Below, in pieces: positions 5,048 through 26,106 of a DNA stretch of 34,848 bases. A model generated the notes under the pieces. It was given only the letters and a program-made list of their open reading frames with translations. It did no database searches and had not been told where the DNA came from. A program made the position numbers and the translations under genes. Origin of the DNA: Phycisphaerae bacterium (GTDB lineage Bacteria > Planctomycetota > Phycisphaerae > Phycisphaerales > SM1A02). The DNA lies in assembly GCA_016873315.1 (NCBI GenBank), contig VGXL01000014.1:1-34848 (forward strand), read 5' to 3'. Positions within the stretch are counted from its first letter, which is position 1, and every line of letters begins with the position of its first letter.

Positions 5048-5296
5048 ATGTTTGAAGGACTTGCGCTCCAGCCCGGCACGCGCGTGCGCGTGATGCAACA
5101 GATGCCCCAAGTCGCCCAGGTGTGGACCACCGCGGTTGAGGGCGTTGTGGTTCGCTGGCGCCAGTCCAAGACCGGCTCGTGGTTCGCGCACTCCCATCAG
5201 GATCGACTCTGGCTCGATCGCCTTGAATTGCGCAAGGATGACGGGGAACTCGTCACCCTGAACCTCGACCGCTACTCGGTCGTCGACGCAGCCTGA
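5048..5296 (+). CDS. conserved hypothetical protein, 82 aa
   Basis: Starts MFEGLALQPGTRVRVMQQM and reads as a small beta-rich, probably SH3- or Sm-like, soluble protein (alternating hydrophobic strands, VWTTAVEGVVVRW, then LWLDRLELRKDDGELVTLNLD). The frame is open for 42 codons before this ATG, but those residues are Arg-rich and look non-coding. A TATACT sequence at 5034-5039 is only nine bases before the ATG, which would make the transcript nearly leaderless; no matching -35 box is seen. Converges with the amidohydrolase gene. Function not recognised. Confidence 0.7.
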   Translation: MFEGLALQPGTRVRVMQQMPQVAQVWTTAVEGVVVRWRQSKTGSWFAHSHQDRLWLDRLELRKDDGELVTLNLDRYSVVDAA

Positions 5297-5317
5297 ACTC
5301 GGGATGCCGGCATTTGG

Positions 5318-5422
5318 GTTTGGGCTGCCCGAACCTGCCCCAAACCGTCCTCAAGGACCCATCACGGCCTAGGTCTGTCCGAACCTGCCCTAGGTCATCA
5401 TCACGACGCATCACGGCTTGGG
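5318..5422 (-). repeat. 49-bp tandem repeat starting in the last codons of the amidohydrolase gene, with covarying hairpins
   Basis: On the minus strand, unit 1 (5422-5374) starts with the last codons and stop of the upstream gene (CCCAAGCCGTGATG), unit 2 (5373-5325) restarts as CCTAGGCCGTGATG, and a third partial unit starts at 5324 (CCCAAACCC). Both complete units are 49 bp. Each contains GGCAGGTTCGG in the loop of a hairpin closed by the head of the next unit. The arms are CCTAGG/CCTAGG (5368-5373 with 5389-5394) in one and GTTTGGG/CCCAAAC (5318-5324 with 5339-5345) in the other, so both arms changed together. The hairpins could end transcription for both convergent genes; no T runs are present. 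Confidence 0.75.
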
Positions 5423-6715
5423 CGCCTCGTACTTCTTTCGGTACTTCTCGAGCATCCTTGTCTGGTGGTTGGACAAATCAAGCCGACGCCCATCGATCCA
5501 CGCGGCCTCAACAGGCGTGCGCACATCAAGCGGGTCTGCGCCGCTCAGGATCATGGTTGCGCGCATGCCGGGCGCAATCGAACCGAGCTGGTCGCCCACA
5601 CCGGCGATCATGGCTGCATCCCGCGTGATCGCCGCCACAGCGCGGTCGTGCGACAGGCCGTGCGCGACCGCCGTCGCGGCGTGATGAGGAAGATTGCGAT
5701 CATTGCTCGGTTCGTCACCAGTCGCGATCGAAAATCGAATGCCAGCCTCAGCGAGGCGCGCGGGTAGCGTGAACGGCGCATCCCAGGCTTCGTGCGCCCA
5801 CTGCGGCAGGCGATGCACACCGACGACGATCACAGGCACATCGTGGGCGCGCAGCAGGTCCGCCTGCTCCAGCGCTCCTGAGCCACCGACGACGACGGGC
5901 TTGAATCCTTCGGCCAGCGCCCAGGTCACGGCGCTGGCGACCTGACCGGCGCTGTTGGCATCGAGATAGAGCGGAGCCGCGCCAGAGAGCACAGGGCGGA
6001 GCCGCTCGAACCGCAAGTCTTCGACCTGTGTTGAGCCCGCGTCACGCGCCGCGATGTAGGCCTTCGCGCGCGCAAAGAACTCCCGCAACTCTCGCAGTTC
6101 GCGATCGATGCGCTTCTGCTGATCATCGGGCGTCGTGCGCGTCCACCACTGCACCGTGGGCTCGGTCGCTGGCCAACGCACGATGACGCCGCTGTCCTTG
6201 CGCACGACCAAGTCGTGCGTGTCCCAGCCGTTCAGACGGATCATGCTCGCGGTGCCGCTCACTCGGCCGCCCTGAGGGAAGACGAGCGCGCCCAGGATCC
6301 CATTGGCGCGCGCGACGGCCAGAAGATCGCTGTCGGGATTCACAGCGACCCACGCCTCGACTTCTGGATGGAACAGACCGAATTCCGTGCGGTCATCCGT
6401 CGCGCGCACTTGCTGCACCTCGATCAGTCCCATGGTGGTGGCGCTCGAAATGAAGCCTGGCCACACATGGCGACCCCCTCCGTCGAGGACGAGCACATCA
6501 TCCATCGGCGCTTGGGCAGCCGGCACGATGGCGGCGATGCGGCCATCGGTTCCGATCACGACCGCTGCATCAGGGATGACCGTGAAGGCGGGATCCATGG
6601 TGTGAACGACGACATTGCGGATGCAACTCACCTGTCGGGGAGCAGCGGTGGGTGCGGTCGAATTCTGGGCCGCCGCCGTGGTGCAGAGCAGCAAGCAGAT
6701 GAGGTGAGTTCTCAT
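5411..6715 (-). CDS. exported amidohydrolase-family protein without metal ligands, 434 aa
   Basis: Starts MRTHLICLLLCTTAAAQ, a signal peptide. The body follows the imidazolonepropionase-like amidohydrolase layout: an N-terminal beta-sandwich (VVVHTMDPAFTVIPDAAVVIGTDGRI), then the place where GxxDxHxH should stand reads WPGFISSATTMGL, and C-terminally AVAAITRDAAMIAGVGDQLGSIAPGMRATMI closes the fold. The HxH metal pair is absent, so catalysis of the usual kind is unlikely. The start overlaps the stop of the 1110-residue amidohydrolase gene as ATGA, so the two are coupled and may form a complex in the periplasm. The longer in-frame start upstream would destroy the signal peptide position and was rejected. 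Confidence 0.8.
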   Translation of the reverse strand: MRTHLICLLLCTTAAAQNSTAPTAAPRQVSCIRNVVVHTMDPAFTVIPDAAVVIGTDGRIAAIVPAAQAPMDDVLVLDGGGRHVWPGFISSATTMGLIEVQQVRATDDRTEFGLFHPEVEAWVAVNPDSDLLAVARANGILGALVFPQGGRVSGTASMIRLNGWDTHDLVVRKDSGVIVRWPATEPTVQWWTRTTPDDQQKRIDRELRELREFFARAKAYIAARDAGSTQVEDLRFERLRPVLSGAAPLYLDANSAGQVASAVTWALAEGFKPVVVGGSGALEQADLLRAHDVPVIVVGVHRLPQWAHEAWDAPFTLPARLAEAGIRFSIATGDEPSNDRNLPHHAATAVAHGLSHDRAVAAITRDAAMIAGVGDQLGSIAPGMRATMILSGADPLDVRTPVEAAWIDGRRLDLSNHQTRMLEKYRKKYEAPKP

Positions 6716-9700
6716 CGGTCGCCTCCACCGAAGATGGTCATCGCTGCGCCGCAACCACACTCGCCTGAACGCACAGCTGCAGGGTCCTGGCCGCGTCGAT
6801 ACATCTCCCAAGACGCATCCTCTCGCGTGTCGAGCATGCGAGCCAAGAGGGTCGGTCCTCGGCGTCGGCCGCCTGAATCAGGATCAGGCTTCGCTGGTGG
6901 TCGATCGGCCGCACCACGCTCGAACGCAGCCTCGAGCAACTGGGCGCGAAGGTCAGCATCGAGCGCGCGACGCTCCAGGTCCGCACGGCGATCGAATCGC
7001 TTCACGCCCTCGATCCAGGTCTGATCACAGAGCGCGTAGCTCGAGAGCGGATCGGTGGTCCACACGACCAAGTCCGCATCCTTGCCGATCTCCAGACTTC
7101 CAGTTCGGTGACCGATGCCCAGTTGGATCGCTGGATTGATCGTCACGAACTTCAACGCTTCAGCAGGCTCGAGCCCGCCGTAACGGCAGGCCTTCGCGGC
7201 TTCAGTGTTGAGTCGTCGGGCGAGTTCGCTGCTGTCAGAGTTGAAACTCGTGAGCACGCCCTGGCCTGTCATGACCGCGCCATTGTGCGGAACCGCGTCC
7301 ATGACTTCCATCTTGTAGGCCCACCAGTCACTGAAGCTGCTCGCGCCCGCGCCGTGGCGCGCGATGCGATCGGCAACTTTGTAGCCCTCAAGGATGTGCT
7401 GCAGCGTGGCGACCTTGAATCCCAGTTCGTCTGCCAGATCGAGCAGCATCACGATCTCGTCCTGACGGTACGAGTGACAGTGCACCACGCGCTCGCCCGC
7501 AAGGATCTCGCCGAGCACCGTGAGTTCGTCATCCACATGCGGGGGCACGGTGCGTGCGCGTGTGGCCGAAGGAAGGGCGTTCCACCGAGCCAGCGCTGCG
7601 CGTTGTTCTGCTGCTGCGCGGAAGCGATCACGCATGAAGGCCTCGACGCCCATGCGCGTATCGGGGTAGCGATCGCGCGCCCGCACGACATTCTCGCCAA
7701 GGGCGAACTTGATGCCGGGCTTCGCGTCAGGGATCGGGAACGCCGCAGCTGGCTCGCCCCACTTGAGTTTGACCACACTGTTGCGACCGCCGATCGGATT
7801 GGCGCTCCCATGGAGTTGGTTTGCCGCCGTCACGCCGCCAGCGAGTTGTCGATACCAATTGATGTCCGCGGGATCGATGACATCACCGATGCCCACTTCG
7901 GCCGTGCAAGCCTGCGTCCACTCGTTGACTTCACCCAGCACGCCAGTGTGGCTGTGACAGTCGATCACGCCAGGCGAGATGTGGCGCCCGGAACAGTCGA
8001 CTTCCGTTGTGCCGGCAGGTACGACGAGCGCGCGACCGATCGCAGCGACCTTGCCAGCGTCAACAAACACATCGCAATCGTCCAGCGTGCCCGCAGCAGC
8101 GCTCGTCCAGACGGTGGCATGCCGGAAGACTGTTCGTTCCAACGCACCGACCATCCGGTCGCCGTTGGTCGTCCGCTCGAATCGAACACCCGAGTCGCCG
8201 AACGGCGCCGTCTTGAGCAGGGCCAATGCAGCGGGATGTCGCTGGTCCGTCGAGGCCGATGGTTCGGCCTCTTGGTCAGCAGAGTTTGGTGTGTTGGCGT
8301 TGTCGGCGGTCACCAAGTCGCTGGCTTGAGAATCTCCCTGCGCTGCGGCCTCGCCTTGATCTGGGGCTGGCACGCTCGCATCAGCGACCATCGTCCACAC
8401 CGTGCGAACACCCTGCGGCGTCACGCACTCGATGCGGATGGCGTGTCCATCAGTCTCGCCGACCACACGAATCCTTGACGCGGGATCGATCGTTCCCGCT
8501 GGCGCGACGAACGAAATCGTGCGCTCACCAAGGTCGACCCGCTCGGCCCTGGCGAAGGTGGGCTTCGATCCAGCCTCGGCACGCTCAGGAGGCGGCTTCA
8601 TCAGGTTGACCGTGCCCTTCGAGAGATCGATCGAGCCGCGCATGGATCGATTACCCGCCGTCATCACGAATCCTCCATCGATCGGAAGCACGGGTCGCGG
8701 CTTGACGATCGACTGTCGGCCGGCGACCCACACCCGGCGCACCTTCGCGCCCTTCGACGCCAAGGTGCCCTCCATGAGCACGATGTTGGCCATCGAACCA
8801 GGTGCGATGCGTCCGTGCGTTGAGCCGAGCCCGAGCAGGGATGCAGGGGTGGTCGTGAGCGCCGCAAGTGCCGCGTCGGTCGACAGTCCGTGTTCGACGG
8901 CGGCGTGCAACCGCGCGTGCAGATCACTGCGTTCCTTCAGTCGGTGGGTGGTGAGCGCCATCGTCACACCACGCTCCGCAAGGAGAGCTGGATTCATCGG
9001 CGAGCACGCCCATGTTCCGAGTTCGCGCAGCGAAATCTGGTCAGCACGCCTTGGATTGGTCAGGTCTGGTGCCTTGGCGAAGTCCAACGGCACCACGAGC
9101 GGCAGTCGCGTCGCGACGACCGCATCGAGTTCGCGGAACTCAAGGCCGCTTGCGACGCACCAACCCGACCAACCCGATTCGTCGAGGAGTGCCTTGGTGT
9201 GAAGGACAGCGTGTTCATCGCTGCACTCAACGACGAAGGGCATCGGCCGAGCACTGGATGCAGGCACGCACGATGCGAGCGCTGACAGTGCGGCGTTTGC
9301 GCGTGGCGGATCCTGGCCTGTGGGCTGCGCCGACCACGCGCGCGAAGCTTGCACGGACCACGCGGCATCGCGCATGACTTGACGCACCAGCGCGATCGCG
9401 CCCATGCGGGACGCTGGGTACGCCACGGCGCGGGGCGCGTCGTAGGGTGGTTCCTGTCCTTCGGGTGGTGTGAATCGATCGAAGGTCGCTGCTTGTCCAA
9501 GTTCCTGGCCGAGCCACATCACCATCGCATCCTCGCTGGCGAGCGTGAGCGCCGCGCCGGTGCCTCGCAACGCACCCGTCGAAGGCCACGCAGCGGCGAC
9601 ACAGAAGCCCGCATCACGCAAACTCTCTCGCGTCGACGCAGCCGGCAGACGCGCTGCACGGACACTGACCTGCGGCGTGACGCGCGGATTCCAGTGTGCG

Positions 9701-10715: not shown

Positions 10716-11816
10716 ATGGCCAATAAAACCACTTCCTCATCACTTTGGTTGGCCCTCCTCCTTTCGGCTGGTGTGGTTCCGGCCTGTGCGGGTCCGGGGC
10801 CGAAGGACTCAAAGGCTGTGCGGACAGCCGATTCCGCCAGCTTGCAGTGGGACGAGGACCTTCCAGAGCCCGCCGCCCCCAAGGGCAGACAGGGGGCCAG
10901 TGCCACAACACGCCTTCCGCCCAAGCGATTTGCACCACCGACCGGCGCCGATGCAACCGCCTCGGCTGACTCCCGCGAGGCGCCAGCCGCGCCTTCGGCC
11001 GCTCAGCCCACACAGCCAGCCGCGACACCATCCAGGCAGCCGGCCGACGAAGGGCTCGCTCCAGAACCCGTTGTGGATGACGCCCCACGAACCACGCGTT
11101 CAGGAACAACATCGAATTCTGATCCAGATGGAGACGGGGAATCGTGGGGCATCGTGCTGCAGACGTTCTCGCAGGATGATCACGCAGTGCGCGCGCAGGC
11201 GTCGTTGAAGTCGATCCGTTCACGCTGGCCTGGATTGGAAGGCGCCTATGTGCGACAGGTCGGTGGTGGCAGCGCAGTGCTGATTGGAACCTTCTCCGGC
11301 CCGACAGACCCACGCGCCAAGCAGCAGCTGGACCACGTCAAGCAGATCGTCGATGGCCGTACTCGCCCTTTCGCACTCGCCATGCTCACGCGCTTCGAAA
11401 CCAATCCTGGCGCTCTGGGGCAGTTCGACCTTCGCCGCGCGCGCGAGCGCTTCCCCAACCAGAATCCGCTGTACTCGGTGCAGGTTGCTGTGTGGAGCGA
11501 TCTTGGTTCGGGCGAACTCTCGCTCGCGGATGTCAAGCAGCGCGCAGAGAGCTACTGCAAGCAGTTGCGCACGCGTGGCATCGAGGCCTATGTGTTCCAC
11601 GACGGTGGCACGAAGACCAGCAGTGTGTGCGTCGGCGTCTTCGGCAAGGATGCCTATGACCCTCGCAGCACGCTCTACTCCGCCGAGGTGGAGGCTGTGT
11701 TCCGGCGCTTTCCCAAGCATTTGGTGAACGGCGAGCCGCTGATGCTGCCCTTCGACAAGAGCGATCCGAGCAAGCTTCGCGCACAACCACCCACGCTCGT
11801 CGAGGTGCCCAAGTGA
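10716..11816 (+). CDS. putative lipoprotein with two SPOR-like domains, 366 aa
   Basis: Starts MANKTTSSSLWLALLLSAG and reaches a possible lipobox VPAC about 27 residues in, so it is probably exported and lipid-anchored. A Pro/Ala/Thr-rich spacer fills about residues 30-140. Two alpha/beta repeats follow: WGIVLQTFSQDD...VLIGTFSGPTD (about 142-210) and YSVQVAVWSDL...CVGVFGKDAYD (about 255-330), each with the strand-helix-strand pattern of SPOR domains, which bind denuded peptidoglycan. Its stop overlaps the GTG start of holB. An earlier in-frame ATG at 10689 is less likely because it would push the signal sequence inward. Confidence 0.65.
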   Translation: MANKTTSSSLWLALLLSAGVVPACAGPGPKDSKAVRTADSASLQWDEDLPEPAAPKGRQGASATTRLPPKRFAPPTGADATASADSREAPAAPSAAQPTQPAATPSRQPADEGLAPEPVVDDAPRTTRSGTTSNSDPDGDGESWGIVLQTFSQDDHAVRAQASLKSIRSRWPGLEGAYVRQVGGGSAVLIGTFSGPTDPRAKQQLDHVKQIVDGRTRPFALAMLTRFETNPGALGQFDLRRARERFPNQNPLYSVQVAVWSDLGSGELSLADVKQRAESYCKQLRTRGIEAYVFHDGGTKTSSVCVGVFGKDAYDPRSTLYSAEVEAVFRRFPKHLVNGEPLMLPFDKSDPSKLRAQPPTLVEVPK

Positions 11817-14087: not shown

Positions 14088-14656
14088 GCGAGCACGACGC
14101 CGAGTCGACGACGGCACGCGAGGTGCCGTGCGCTGACCTCCCTCTTGCTCAGCGTGTCGAGGCCGTGCTCCTTGCGGCTGATCGACCGATCGCCGACGGT
14201 CGCATCGCGGATGTGCTGGGACTTGAGCTCGGCGCTTCACAGGTCCGCGCCGCGATCGAGGAGCTCAATGCGGTCTACGCGTCGACGGACCGGACCTTTC
14301 GCATCGAACAGGTCGCAGGCGGCCGTCAGGTCATGACGACATCCGCACTCGGGCCGGTCGTTGCCAGACTTCGTGGCGAGCGTGCTCAAGCGCGATTGAC
14401 GCAGGCCGCTTTGGAAACGCTCGCCGTGGTCGCGTATCGACAGCCGATTCTGCGTGCCGACATCGAGGCGATCCGTGGCGTGGCGTGCGGCGAAGTGTTG
14501 CGCAGCCTGATGGAGCGTCGCATGGTTCGCATCGTGGGGCGCAGCGAAGAGATCGGGCGCCCCATGCTGTATGGCACGACGGGCGAGTTCCTGCGCACCT
14601 TCGGCATCGCATCGATCAGCGACCTGCCCCAAGCCAAGGACCTGAAGGCTCCCTGA
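14084..14656 (+). CDS. scpB: segregation and condensation protein B
   Basis: ScpB binds ScpA and, with SMC, forms the bacterial condensin. Two winged-helix domains are visible: about 20-90 (LAQRVEAVLLAADRPIADGRIADVL) and about 100-170, with the hallmark LETLAVVAYRQPILRADIEAIRGV and a closing GRPMLYGTTGEFLRTFGI. Length 190 is normal. The GTG start forms GTGA with the atpC stop. ScpA is not in the window. The last codons (DLPQAKDLKAP) are the first unit of a tandem repeat that continues past the stop. Confidence 0.92.
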   Translation: MSEHDAESTTAREVPCADLPLAQRVEAVLLAADRPIADGRIADVLGLELGASQVRAAIEELNAVYASTDRTFRIEQVAGGRQVMTTSALGPVVARLRGERAQARLTQAALETLAVVAYRQPILRADIEAIRGVACGEVLRSLMERRMVRIVGRSEEIGRPMLYGTTGEFLRTFGIASISDLPQAKDLKAP

Positions 14657-14803
14657 GCAAGCCAAGGTCTGACGGGCCGCGGGGCAAGCTCGGAATCTGA
14701 GGTTCCCGAGCATCCAAGGTCTGACTGCTCCTTGAGCAAGGCGGGAATAAGAGGCCCGCTGGGCAAGCCAGGGTCTGAAGGCTCCGTATGGCAGGAGCGC
14801 GGG
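14621..14803 (+). repeat. imperfect 24-28-bp tandem repeat running out of scpB, with mini-hairpins
   Basis: Seven units: 14621-14645 (inside scpB), 14646-14672 (spans the scpB stop), 14673-14700, 14701-14724, 14725-14752, 14753-14778 and a degenerate one to about 14803. Most end in GGTCTGA or a variant of it, and carry GCAAGCC or a variant in the middle. Several units hold a small stem with a 2- or 3-base loop whose arms change together: GCTC-CCT-GAGC, GTTC-CC-GAGC (one G-T pair), GCTC-CTT-GAGC, GCCC-GCT-GGGC. The repeats are DNA-level; unit length is not a multiple of three throughout. Confidence 0.7.
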
Positions 14804-16506: not shown

Positions 16507-16923
16507 GACAACCCTCTCCCCTCCGCGCCCAATGGCGACGGACTTTCACAACCGGAACTGATGGTCGTCGCGATAACGCGAGTCCCTCCGTGACGCATCC
16601 CTCCAGATGCGGCCGGAGAATCTCCGGCACCCCATCCATACGATTCGGGCGGGCTGCGAGAAACACGAAGTCGGAAGTTTTTCAACCTCTCACGGCTCGT
16701 CCAATATGAACCGCCACGGAGCTTCATGGGTCGCCATCCCCGCGCCGGTCGCCCCCTCGCCGTCGATCACTTTCTGGCTCTAGCCGTCAACGGTCGCCCC
16801 ACCCATGCCGTCGACCGACGGTTCTGCGTCGTTCGCCCCTGGGTCAATGCCGTCGACCGACGGTCCGGCGTCGTTCGCCCCTGGGTCAATGCTGTCGACC
16901 GACGGCCCTGCGTCGTTCGCCCG
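16507..16923. other. gene-free stretch with leader hairpins and tandem repeats
   Basis: Neither strand holds a frame I can support. The left part is the leader of the exported-protein gene on the minus strand and contains three stem-loops: GCCGGAG/CTCCGGC (16612-16628), CGCATC/GATGCG (16594-16611) and CGCG/CGCG (16569-16580). The right part holds the 42-bp tandem repeats downstream of dusB. A plus-strand frame from 16726 encodes only translated repeats and then runs antisense to dusB. Confidence 0.6.
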
Positions 16924-16947
16924 CTAGTCCAGGCCGTCGACCGTCTC
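16807..16947 (-). repeat. 42-bp tandem repeat starting at the dusB 3' end
   Basis: On the plus strand three 42-bp units start at 16807, 16849 and 16891 (each GCCGTCGACCGACGG-like, then GCGTCGTTCGCC and CTGGGTCAAT), with a partial fourth at 16933-16947 inside the last codons of dusB. The third unit contains the dusB stop codon (16924-16926). A more degenerate copy appears further out near 16750-16800. Each unit carries the inverted repeat CCGTCG-AC-CGACGG with small changes. Confidence 0.75.
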
Positions 16948-17991
16948 CCGGCCTCTCAGGACGGCGGGCGTGTGCTCGCGGTCGGGCGTCATCCAATCCC
17001 GGATGGCGCCTCGCATCGCCTCGAAGGTGGTGGCGGTCCGGACTGCTTCCTTCAGAGGCTTGATGTGCCCCATCGTCCGGCCATACCACGCGATGCCCTG
17101 GTTGAGCCGCTTCACGCCGTACCACGGCTTGGCGAACTGCTCCATCAGGTCGATGTGGCGAAGGATGGCCCGGCACTTGTCGTTGAAGGACAGGTCGGGT
17201 CCGAGCGTTCCGGTGGCTAGGTGTTCGGCTGCTCGCCGGAACATCCACGGGGTCCGCAGCGCAGCCCGAGCGATCATGACACCGGCGCACCCGGATCGAT
17301 CGATGAGCGCCTTCGCGTGCTCAGGCTCGACCACATCGCCATTGCCGATGATGGGAATCGACGGAACGGCTTCGACTACCCGACCGATCGCGTCCCAGTC
17401 AGCCTGCCCGCTGAAGAACTGCACGGTGTACCGGCCGTGCACCGTGACGGCGGCAATGCCAACATCGGCCAGTCGCCCGGCCAGATCTGGCGCCACCATG
17501 TGTTCGGGATCCCAGCCCAGTCGCATCTTGGCGGTCACCGGGACTCGACCGCCGCTTGCACGCTCGACGGCCTTCACAATGCGATCAGCCAGGATGGCGG
17601 TCGCTGGGCAATCGCGCAGCAAGAGGCTGCCCCCATTTTTCTTGGCAACTTTGTCGACCGGACAACCCATGTTGATGTCGATCACCTGCGCGCCATGATC
17701 GATCGCCCAGAGCGCCGCCTCGGGCAAGGGATCATCGCCGTTGCCGTAGAGCTGCATGCCGCACGGTCGATCCAGTTCGTTCGTGGCTGCAAGTTCAAGC
17801 GAGCGTTCCGACCCGCGCAGCACGGCATGTGCATTCAGGAGATCGGTGAAGGCAATGCCCACACCACCAAGTTCGCGGCAGAGGATTCGAAACGGAAGGT
17901 CGGTGTAGCCAGCGATCGGCGCGAGCAACAGGTTGCTCTGGAGTTCGACGGGGCCGATGCGAAGCACGCGAGCATGGTAAGGCGCGTGCAT
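16924..17991 (-). CDS. dusB: tRNA-dihydrouridine synthase
   Basis: Dus enzymes reduce uridines in tRNA with FMN and NADPH. Family marks are APIAGYTDLPFRILCRELGG (FMN-binding start, about 24-43), MQLYGN, DINMGCPVDKVAKKNGGSLLL (catalytic Cys in NMGCP and Lys), VTAKMRLGW, VTVHGRYTVQFFSGQADW, IIGNGDV and GVMIARAALRTPW, followed by the helical C-terminal domain (GVKRLNQGIAWYGRTM...). About 355 residues is normal for DusB. The ATG at 17991 is chosen; upstream in-frame codons are translated 22-bp repeats. The last 20 bases form the end of the 42-bp repeat array. Confidence 0.9.
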   Translation of the reverse strand: MHAPYHARVLRIGPVELQSNLLLAPIAGYTDLPFRILCRELGGVGIAFTDLLNAHAVLRGSERSLELAATNELDRPCGMQLYGNGDDPLPEAALWAIDHGAQVIDINMGCPVDKVAKKNGGSLLLRDCPATAILADRIVKAVERASGGRVPVTAKMRLGWDPEHMVAPDLAGRLADVGIAAVTVHGRYTVQFFSGQADWDAIGRVVEAVPSIPIIGNGDVVEPEHAKALIDRSGCAGVMIARAALRTPWMFRRAAEHLATGTLGPDLSFNDKCRAILRHIDLMEQFAKPWYGVKRLNQGIAWYGRTMGHIKPLKEAVRTATTFEAMRGAIRDWMTPDREHTPAVLRGRETVDGLD

Positions 17992-24322: not shown

Positions 24323-26106
24323 CAGGAACCCGCAACGCGTCGCTGCGCGGTGCGCGTGATCCACCAGCACCCCAGGGCGACGATGGACAGGCCCGGCGCA
24401 CCCAGCACACTGAGCGTGCTCGCGTCGAGCAGGCAGAACGCGGCGATCCATGCTGCAACGCCGCCAGCGATGCGCGTGGGATGACTTCGCATGGCGCGTT
24501 CAGCATGCAGAGTCTTCACAAGGAAGATGCCGCCGCAGAAGAGCGCCATCGGCAATGCGACGATCGTCATGACCTGAAGCATGCCGCGCGCGCCGCCAGA
24601 CACGACAGGGCTGAAGGCCCATGGAACCAGGATGGCCGCGCCCAGCAGCACCTGCACCCACGCGCGGGTGGGTCGCGGCGTTCCCGCGGGTGATGTGTCG
24701 TCGACCGGCACCACTTCGTCGCGCGCCATGAGCGAGACGGCGATCGTCGAGGCGAACGCGATGAGACCTGGGAAGAGCATGAGTCCCCATGCGCTGGCAG
24801 AGGACCCGTTGTACGCCATTCCCGACACGCTGATGACGGAGAGCGTGGCGCACCAGTAAGCCAACGCTCGGCACAGGCCCAGCAGCACGACGCTTCCTCG
24901 CCAGGACCGATGCGTGAACGAGTACGCGGCGATCGTGGCGACGAGGAGCAGCACGGCCTCGAATCCCCAGGGCGTCCTGAGTTCCACATGTCGCCAGTGG
25001 TCGAGCCAGTTCCAGAGGATCGCGCCGACGCCGACGACAGCCCATGCCTCGCCGAGCCATTGAATGGCATTGCGCTGACCCTTCGCGAAACTTCCGAACG
25101 CGAGACCGACGGCGATCGCAGCGAGTCCGGGAATCGGGAATGATCCGCCACCCACGAGCCAAACACCGGTTGAAACGAGCACGGCAGCGAGCAAGAGCGC
25201 CGGTCGAAGGCTGATGCGCCCGCTCGGCAGCGGACGGCTTGGCCGTTCGGTGGCATCGATGTCACGATCCAGAAGATCGTTGATCACCATCCCGAAGAGG
25301 TAGAGCAAGCAGATGCCCGCGATCGTGCCGACATGTCGTGGCAACCAGAAGATGAACCGATCGATCGTCGCTTGCCCGGCGAGAAGATGCGCGACCCAGA
25401 GTCCAACCATCGCGTTCGTCGCGACGGTCAGCACATTGGAAATGCGCGTGAGTTCGAGCCATGCCCAGACGCCATCGCGAGGAAGCGGTGCCGACCGTGG
25501 TGCTGGTTCAACATGGGATGTGGGAATCGCGAGCACTGCTGTGACGGTGGGTTCCTCGTCCGCTTCGATGCGCCGGAACCCCAAGGGCTCGGGAACCGCT
25601 GTGGCCGCTGCGTCAATGGACTCGACCGCCGCGGCATCAGCGGACTCAGCGACCTCCAACGGTTCGGCTGCAGTCGCGCTCGGGGACTCGACGACGGATT
25701 CAACGACGGGCTCGACGACTGGCTCAACGACTGGCTCAACGACTGGCTCAACAACAGACTCAACGACTGGCTCGACGACGGACTCAACAACGGACTCGTC
25801 CGATGGTTCGCCGGTGCATTCGATCGGCGCATCATCGATCGGTGCGACCACTTCAGGCTTGGGCTCGACCGACTCCCACGCATCGATGGGCTCGATCGAA
25901 CGAGGTGCGGTCAGCGAGGCATCCTCATCACCCCACGCGGCGAGCGCTTGCCCCGCAGGTGGCGCCGCGGGCTCGTGCATCTGCACCTCAGGCACGCTGT
26001 CCATCGAGGGTGGATCGATGCCCTCGAGGTCGGCCGCCACGATGTGGTCGAAGAGGCCGGGCTGCTCACCATCCTGCTTGCGTCGAGTGCGATCTCCGTT
26101 CGCCAT
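24322..26106 (-). CDS. UbiA-family prenyltransferase, EboC-like, with acidic repeat extension, 594 aa
   Basis: From about residue 210 the protein is a polytopic UbiA prenyltransferase: WLELTRISNVLTVATNAMVG, then NDLLDRDIDATERPSRPLPSGRIS near 275 (NDxxDxxxD, binds Mg-prenyl diphosphate) and further membrane helices to the C-terminus (about eight in all). UbiA-like proteins in ebo clusters (EboC) are thought to act in metabolite prenylation or membrane handling. The N-terminal about 200 residues are acidic and Pro/Ala-rich with a stretch of VVEP/VVES repeats, unusual for the family and probably cytoplasmic and disordered. The EboF-like gene overlaps the stop by one base; EboE ends 66 bp upstream. 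Confidence 0.82.
   Translation of the reverse strand: MANGDRTRRKQDGEQPGLFDHIVAADLEGIDPPSMDSVPEVQMHEPAAPPAGQALAAWGDEDASLTAPRSIEPIDAWESVEPKPEVVAPIDDAPIECTGEPSDESVVESVVEPVVESVVEPVVEPVVEPVVEPVVESVVESPSATAAEPLEVAESADAAAVESIDAAATAVPEPLGFRRIEADEEPTVTAVLAIPTSHVEPAPRSAPLPRDGVWAWLELTRISNVLTVATNAMVGLWVAHLLAGQATIDRFIFWLPRHVGTIAGICLLYLFGMVINDLLDRDIDATERPSRPLPSGRISLRPALLLAAVLVSTGVWLVGGGSFPIPGLAAIAVGLAFGSFAKGQRNAIQWLGEAWAVVGVGAILWNWLDHWRHVELRTPWGFEAVLLLVATIAAYSFTHRSWRGSVVLLGLCRALAYWCATLSVISVSGMAYNGSSASAWGLMLFPGLIAFASTIAVSLMARDEVVPVDDTSPAGTPRPTRAWVQVLLGAAILVPWAFSPVVSGGARGMLQVMTIVALPMALFCGGIFLVKTLHAERAMRSHPTRIAGGVAAWIAAFCLLDASTLSVLGAPGLSIVALGCWWITRTAQRRVAGS
25685..25797 (-). repeat. 12-bp coding repeat (VVEP/VVES) in the EboC-like gene
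   Basis: About nine units of a 12-bp repeat (GACTGGCTCAAC and variants on the plus strand) encode VVEP or VVES on the minus strand. Central units are nearly identical, and outer ones have drifted, as expected from slippage. The number of units is likely to vary between strains. Confidence 0.8.

Follow-up and report, generated by a model that had tools for sequence, protein, structure and literature searches.

Why should the last codons and the stop codon of a bacterial gene recur downstream of that gene, and why should the copies meet in hairpins whose two arms have changed together? The question is raised by an amidohydrolase-like gene on contig VGXL01000014.1 (C14) of the Phycisphaerae bacterium assembly GCA_016873315.1, a 2.42-Mb metagenome-assembled genome (MAG) in 170 contigs with 65% GC. 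The window is the whole 34,848-nt stretch of this contig that was analyzed. The repeat is one of many gene-end duplications in this bacterium, and it is likely an old tandem duplication of the gene tail, since decayed, in which the duplicated segment held a quasi-palindrome and hairpins were kept at the unit boundaries.

A decayed tandem repeat of a gene end

The amidohydrolase-like gene occupies positions 5411 to 6811 on the minus strand. Read on that strand, its end, CCCAAGCCGTGATG, returns 49 nt downstream as CCTAGGCCGTGATG, and a third unit opens with CCCAAACC. Unit 1 (5422-5374) holds the last codons and the stop, unit 2 (5373-5325) is a diverged copy, and of the truncated third unit only the start is present (5317 to 5324). 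Units 1 and 2 contain indels and agree at 24 of 49 positions in an ungapped comparison. The repeat spacing is 49 nt in the gene-end part and 50 nt in the part that forms the hairpin loop, where the two copies are identical at 13 of 14 letters. The best 49-nt self-match of the region, 29/49, was equaled by none of 200 dinucleotide shuffles (maximum, 27), and the head-to-tail copies are therefore not due to chance. This agrees with a first-pass annotation made from the letters of the stretch, which had described the gene-end codons and stop as repeated one 49-bp unit downstream. Tandem repeats can be assembled wrongly, and a short-read MAG in 170 contigs might carry an assembly artefact at such a place. 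However, the array lies mid-contig, and units with so little ungapped identity are not an assembler's double count, so that an artefact is very unlikely.

The gene faces a convergent neighbor, an open reading frame (ORF) of 82 amino acids at 5048 to 5296 on the plus strand, with no Pfam match, across a spacer of 114 bp. The amidohydrolase-like gene is itself an ORF, of 466 amino acids counted from the listed TTG, and its matches to Amidohydro_3 and Amidohydro_1 are weak, both falling below the Pfam cut-offs. Among eight named records with a relative of the gene, six are labeled as planctomycete groups, one as Bacteroidia, and one as uncultured bacterium.

Two hairpins at the unit boundaries

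Two hairpins can be read on the minus strand. The first, H1 (5368 to 5394), pairs CCTAGG at 5389-5394 with CCTAGG at 5368-5373 in a 6-bp stem around a 15-nt loop, and the second, H2 (5317 to 5346), pairs GGTTTGGG at 5339-5346 with CCCAAACC at 5317-5324 in an 8-bp stem around a 14-nt loop. Near-identical loops on different stems at the unit boundaries had been noted in the first-pass annotation, as had the joint change of the arms, and both descriptions hold. With each hairpin in its own register, three pairs of the stem differ between H1 and H2 at both of their positions, and one pair is an A.C mismatch in H1 and G-C in H2; all seven differences within the 8-nt arms are transitions. Among 2000 shuffles of the 114-nt spacer, 3.2% held a stem of at least 8 bp and 8.5% held at least two stems of at least 6 bp. 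The hairpins alone are mildly unusual; the striking part is their placement around two copies of one loop.

Selection on structure, which had been put forward to account for this pattern, would make the two hairpins an RNA element, such as a bidirectional terminator or a 3'-end protector of the convergent transcripts, with stems kept by compensatory substitution. The convergent gene pair, the three pairs that changed on both sides with pairing retained, and the low frequency of an 8-bp stem in shuffled spacers are in keeping with such an element. Folding argues against it: the spacer gives a z score of 0.06 on one strand and -0.79 on the other, no better than shuffles, and the whole 121-nt region gives -0.47 and -0.63. 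A terminator scan of positions 5200-5500 (loops of 3 to 8 only) returned no sites, no T run follows either hairpin, and the GC-rich stem plus U-tract of an intrinsic terminator was not found here. The covariance models of Rfam 15 had no match at gathering score and none up to E = 1 for 5290-5440.

The same junction in related genomes

An orthologue of the amidohydrolase-like gene was found in seven of eight other genomes of the genus with 84 to 86% protein identity, the seventh being partial and cut at a contig end; the eighth genome had no match. The convergent gene pair is kept in six congeners, in which the 82-amino-acid neighbor was recovered by translation in four and by alignment in all six. 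At the same junction in these six the repeat is absent, and the spacers, 66 to 105 nt long with the stop codon counted, do not align with the present one. The first-pass annotation had proposed aligning the same gene ends in relatives, with a lack of the repeat as an outcome that would speak against its reading, and that outcome was obtained in all six. With unalignable spacers no covariation was found across these species, and co-change is confined to the three pairs within the array. One congener spacer (L030) does fold strongly (z, -4.63), as an RNA element at this junction might, but the other five do not, which places a strongly folding spacer here in one of seven genomes. A selected RNA element is thus improbable in our view: selection on RNA structure finds little support in a repeat and hairpins that six congeners lack, and the structural part of the earlier interpretation is not supported; the tandem copy and the co-changed arms stand.

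Short palindromes beside a gene with a common loop might also belong to an inserted dispersed element of the repetitive extragenic palindromic (REP) or miniature inverted-repeat transposable element (MITE) type. A 15-nt loop pattern was indeed found at 11 sites in 61 genomes compared with 3 for a reversed control. These sites fall in only 8 of the 61 genomes, however, six of which have a single site, and the exact loop pattern has two hits in the bacterium's own genome, both at this locus; with up to one mismatch there are 11 hits there, compared with 12 for the reversed control. A DNA search with a 134-nt query of the region returned only the self-match (E <= 0.01) among 101 genomes, the own genome included. 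A REP or other dispersed palindrome was rejected, since the many copies that define such families are not present in the genome, and insertion of a dispersed element is extremely unlikely. The unit is private to this locus and lineage, as judged from the own genome, the six congeners, and the 101-genome search, and with copies beyond chance the locus fits a locus-specific gene-end tandem repeat of the minisatellite type. The searches turned up no second strain of the species in which the copy number could be compared.

Gene-end tandem arrays in six genomes

Tandem arrays were counted in 435 kb of the own genome and in 338 to 400 kb of each of five others, three of them congeners (G001, G004, and G007) and two from other genera of the same family (G013 and G017). 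Arrays were taken from Tandem Repeats Finder (TRF) at a score of at least 50 and a period of at least 8 and assigned to spacers of 20 to 600 bp; gene calls came from a simple codon-usage caller, which makes the spacer edges at gene starts approximate. The 49-nt repeat of the window was absent from the TRF array list. In the own genome, an array touches 12 of the 39 spacers between convergent genes, 12 of the 118 between co-directional genes, and 2 of the 47 between divergent genes (convergent versus divergent, Fisher P = 0.0011). Pooled, the three congeners have arrays at 7/100 convergent spacers and 13/363 co-directional spacers, and the own genome exceeds them both at convergent spacers (Fisher P = 0.0006) and at the two spacer types combined (24/157 versus 20/463; Fisher P = 1.7e-5). 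Corresponding counts for convergent, co-directional, and divergent spacers are 1/34, 3/77, and 3/47 in G013 and 2/34, 6/148, and 1/44 in G017. Arrays within coding sequence show no excess in the own genome (0.157 per kb, compared with 0.231 in G004 and 0.178 in G017).

Recurrence of gene ends was also seen without TRF. The last 20 nt of a gene recur downstream at 15 or more of 20 positions in 11 of 321 own-genome gene ends (mean of swapped control, 0.9), compared with 1/309 in G001, 3/323 in G004, 3/298 in G007, 0/252 in G013, and 1/304 in G017. The same test and threshold applied to own-genome gene starts gave 3 of 325 (control, 0.9). The gene end of the window recurs at 14/20 by hand count and is outside the 11. 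The period is a multiple of 3 in 39 of 56 coding arrays and in 4 of 20 stop-codon arrays, as expected if frame selection acts on coding copies only.

Among 38 noncoding arrays listed at a score of at least 45, 14 begin 1 to 36 nt before the end of a stop codon, and two of these lie elsewhere in the window. One (14642 to 14778) is a degenerate array of about 52 bp, perhaps 26 bp, in a convergent spacer and starts 15 bp inside a gene ending at 14656; the other (16805 to 16943) has a 42-bp unit in 3.3 copies and reaches 20 bp into a minus-strand gene at 16924-17991. The unit of the latter contains a near-palindrome. Anchoring of arrays on the stop codon was considered and rejected: the 14 of 38 looked strong, yet uniform placement accounts for the numbers, with 11 of 28 stop-straddling arrays observed against 8.9 expected (P = 0.21).

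Where 11 own-genome gene ends had sampled within-genus orthologues, a TRF array was found in 3 of 18 congener rows; of 28 rows in all, covering arrays and gene ends, 17 were without a within-genus orthologue in the sampled stretches. Each of the three congener arrays has a unit unlike the own-genome unit. Two of them have 13-nt units and begin at the gene end, and for one of these the unit was made in both genomes out of a shared gene end; the third begins 45 nt downstream of where the matched protein ends. The class is consistent with tandem duplication that recurs, is specific to lineages, and is mostly neutral.

A lesion in a repair gene was considered as the source of the array excess, and neither RecJ nor SbcD supported it across nine genomes: the own genome has a full-length RecJ match that scores under the family cut-off, which holds for all nine genomes searched, and SbcD gives weak matches or none in each of the nine. 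The mutS gene of G000 is split into two overlapping pieces, each at the end of a contig (C81 and C47), which may reflect an assembly break or strain variation.

Other repeats were seen in passing. Within a coding region of the window, 25685-25797 is a 36-bp repeat in 3.1 copies (alternatively, 12 bp in 9.2 copies). A perfect 94-bp tandem duplication (L070:11504-11705) overlaps the 3' end of a minus-strand tRNA-Val gene (11686-11760) by about 20 nt, and a 10-bp array of 7.5 copies in a convergent spacer (L076:16218-16292) has 4-nt arms that alternate among GCGC, GCAC, and GTGC.

Hairpins within the arrays

The array units of the own genome are not rich in hairpins. Units from its 20 stop-codon arrays fold no better than shuffled units (mean z, 0.01), and neither do those of G007, G013, and G017. 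Convergent spacers of the own genome have only weakly lower fold z scores than divergent spacers (-0.50, n = 27, versus -0.06, n = 25). In 40 own-genome noncoding arrays, 106 hairpin pairs in stems of at least 5 bp have changed, and 81 of them have lost pairing: one-sided changes broke pairing in 78 cases and kept it in 18, while two-sided changes broke it in 3 and kept it in 7. With own-genome units that fold like shuffled ones and changed pairs that mostly break, hairpin arrays as a class are not supported; the few stop-codon arrays of G004 and G001 point the other way. Co-change of hairpin arms across the class is a weak hint.

The first-pass annotation had offered hairpin-templated copying as its other explanation, and this is a known mutation mechanism, quasipalindrome template-switch mutation (PMC8794818; see also PMC7202029), which is reported to create and maintain hairpins (PMC8794818). 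Were it the main driver here, one arm would have been copied from the other during replication and several stem positions would have been rewritten after the duplication. That the arms differ at several sites yet still pair, and that 7 of the 10 two-sided changes in the class still pair, would be in line with this mechanism, which could alter the two arms of a hairpin jointly. Read from the letters, however, reverse-complement identity ends at the 6-bp and 8-bp stems, and no copied patch extends beyond the stem at this locus. The changed pairs of the class are mostly broken, and differences that are all transitions would also be expected from separate point changes. Template switching as the main driver is a tentative proposition that we hold to be doubtful; for the co-changed arms of this locus it is a fair explanation, and coincidence is another.

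Comparison with known repeats

Bacterial minisatellites or variable-number tandem repeats (VNTRs), among them the mycobacterial interspersed repetitive units (MIRUs), are short tandem units in spacers that touch stop codons, and the repeat of the window resembles them in these respects. MIRUs form a dispersed family with a common sequence, unlike the present repeat, whose loop sequence occurs at this locus alone in the genome. REP palindromes are likewise small and extragenic (PMC3733652), but they form high-copy families, and this hairpin is restricted to a single locus. A similar placement is seen in Borg elements, in which, as described in PMC9879509, tandem repeats have their first unit inside gene ends, 14 to 38% of intergenic unit lengths are divisible by three, and some units are predicted to form hairpins. 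Gene-end placement is shared with the class in this genome; the Borg repeats in that account are perfect, A-rich, and archaeal extrachromosomal, whereas the copies at the present locus are decayed and come from a bacterial MAG of high GC content. A repeat that had been annotated as not explained by any known feature thus has counterparts both within its own genome and in the Borg repeats of that report. No title on gene-end repeats in planctomycetes was among the literature matches listed, and such work may exist.

Origin of the repeat

We infer a tandem duplication of about 49 bp that ran from the last codons across the stop into the spacer, probably through replication slippage or unequal exchange, followed by the start of a third, partial copy. 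The duplication would have been harmless in a promoter-free convergent spacer, because the first copy retains the reading frame and the stop, and would then have decayed. The duplicated segment may simply have held a quasi-palindrome, in which case a hairpin would be retained at each unit boundary. The three two-sided pair differences could have arisen either from template-switch correction of this quasi-palindrome or from coincident transitions.

Several observations weigh against this reading. All three changed core pairs in the array of the window are compensated and none is broken, which stands out in the class, but the array was picked for that property. With 4 left and 3 right positions of 8 changed, the chance of full coincidence is 4/56 (0.07), a hand calculation made after the fact. 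The class-wide proportion of two-sided changes that still pair, 7/10, compares with 39% for random letters of this composition (P = 0.046 assuming independent pairs, which they are not). Stop-codon array units of G004 (mean z, -1.39; n = 6) and G001 (-2.22; n = 2) fold better than shuffled units, and own-genome gene starts, too, show a small excess of recurrence at 16 or more of 20 positions (2/325; control, 0.0). The repeat itself is too degenerate for TRF and hence outside the arrays counted for the class, and slippage is deduced rather than observed; the comparisons made are between species. A more far-reaching interpretation, that an unusually active process in this lineage places tandem copies of the 3' ends of genes, a tRNA gene among them, in spacers and that template switching keeps the hairpins of some copies paired, we regard as unlikely.

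Decay of an old gene-tail duplication is nevertheless the explanation that we favor, and the paired hairpin arms are a curiosity, not evidence of a new genetic element. An eye-catching repeat of the last codons of a gene requires no such element: a duplication that spans the stop codon spares the gene, and the array therefore survives. The excess of arrays over the three sampled congeners is a modest lead on how lineages differ in short tandem duplication. If the interpretation of unusually active copying were true, the gene-end spacers of this lineage would document the effect of tandem duplication and hairpin repair on untranslated ends.
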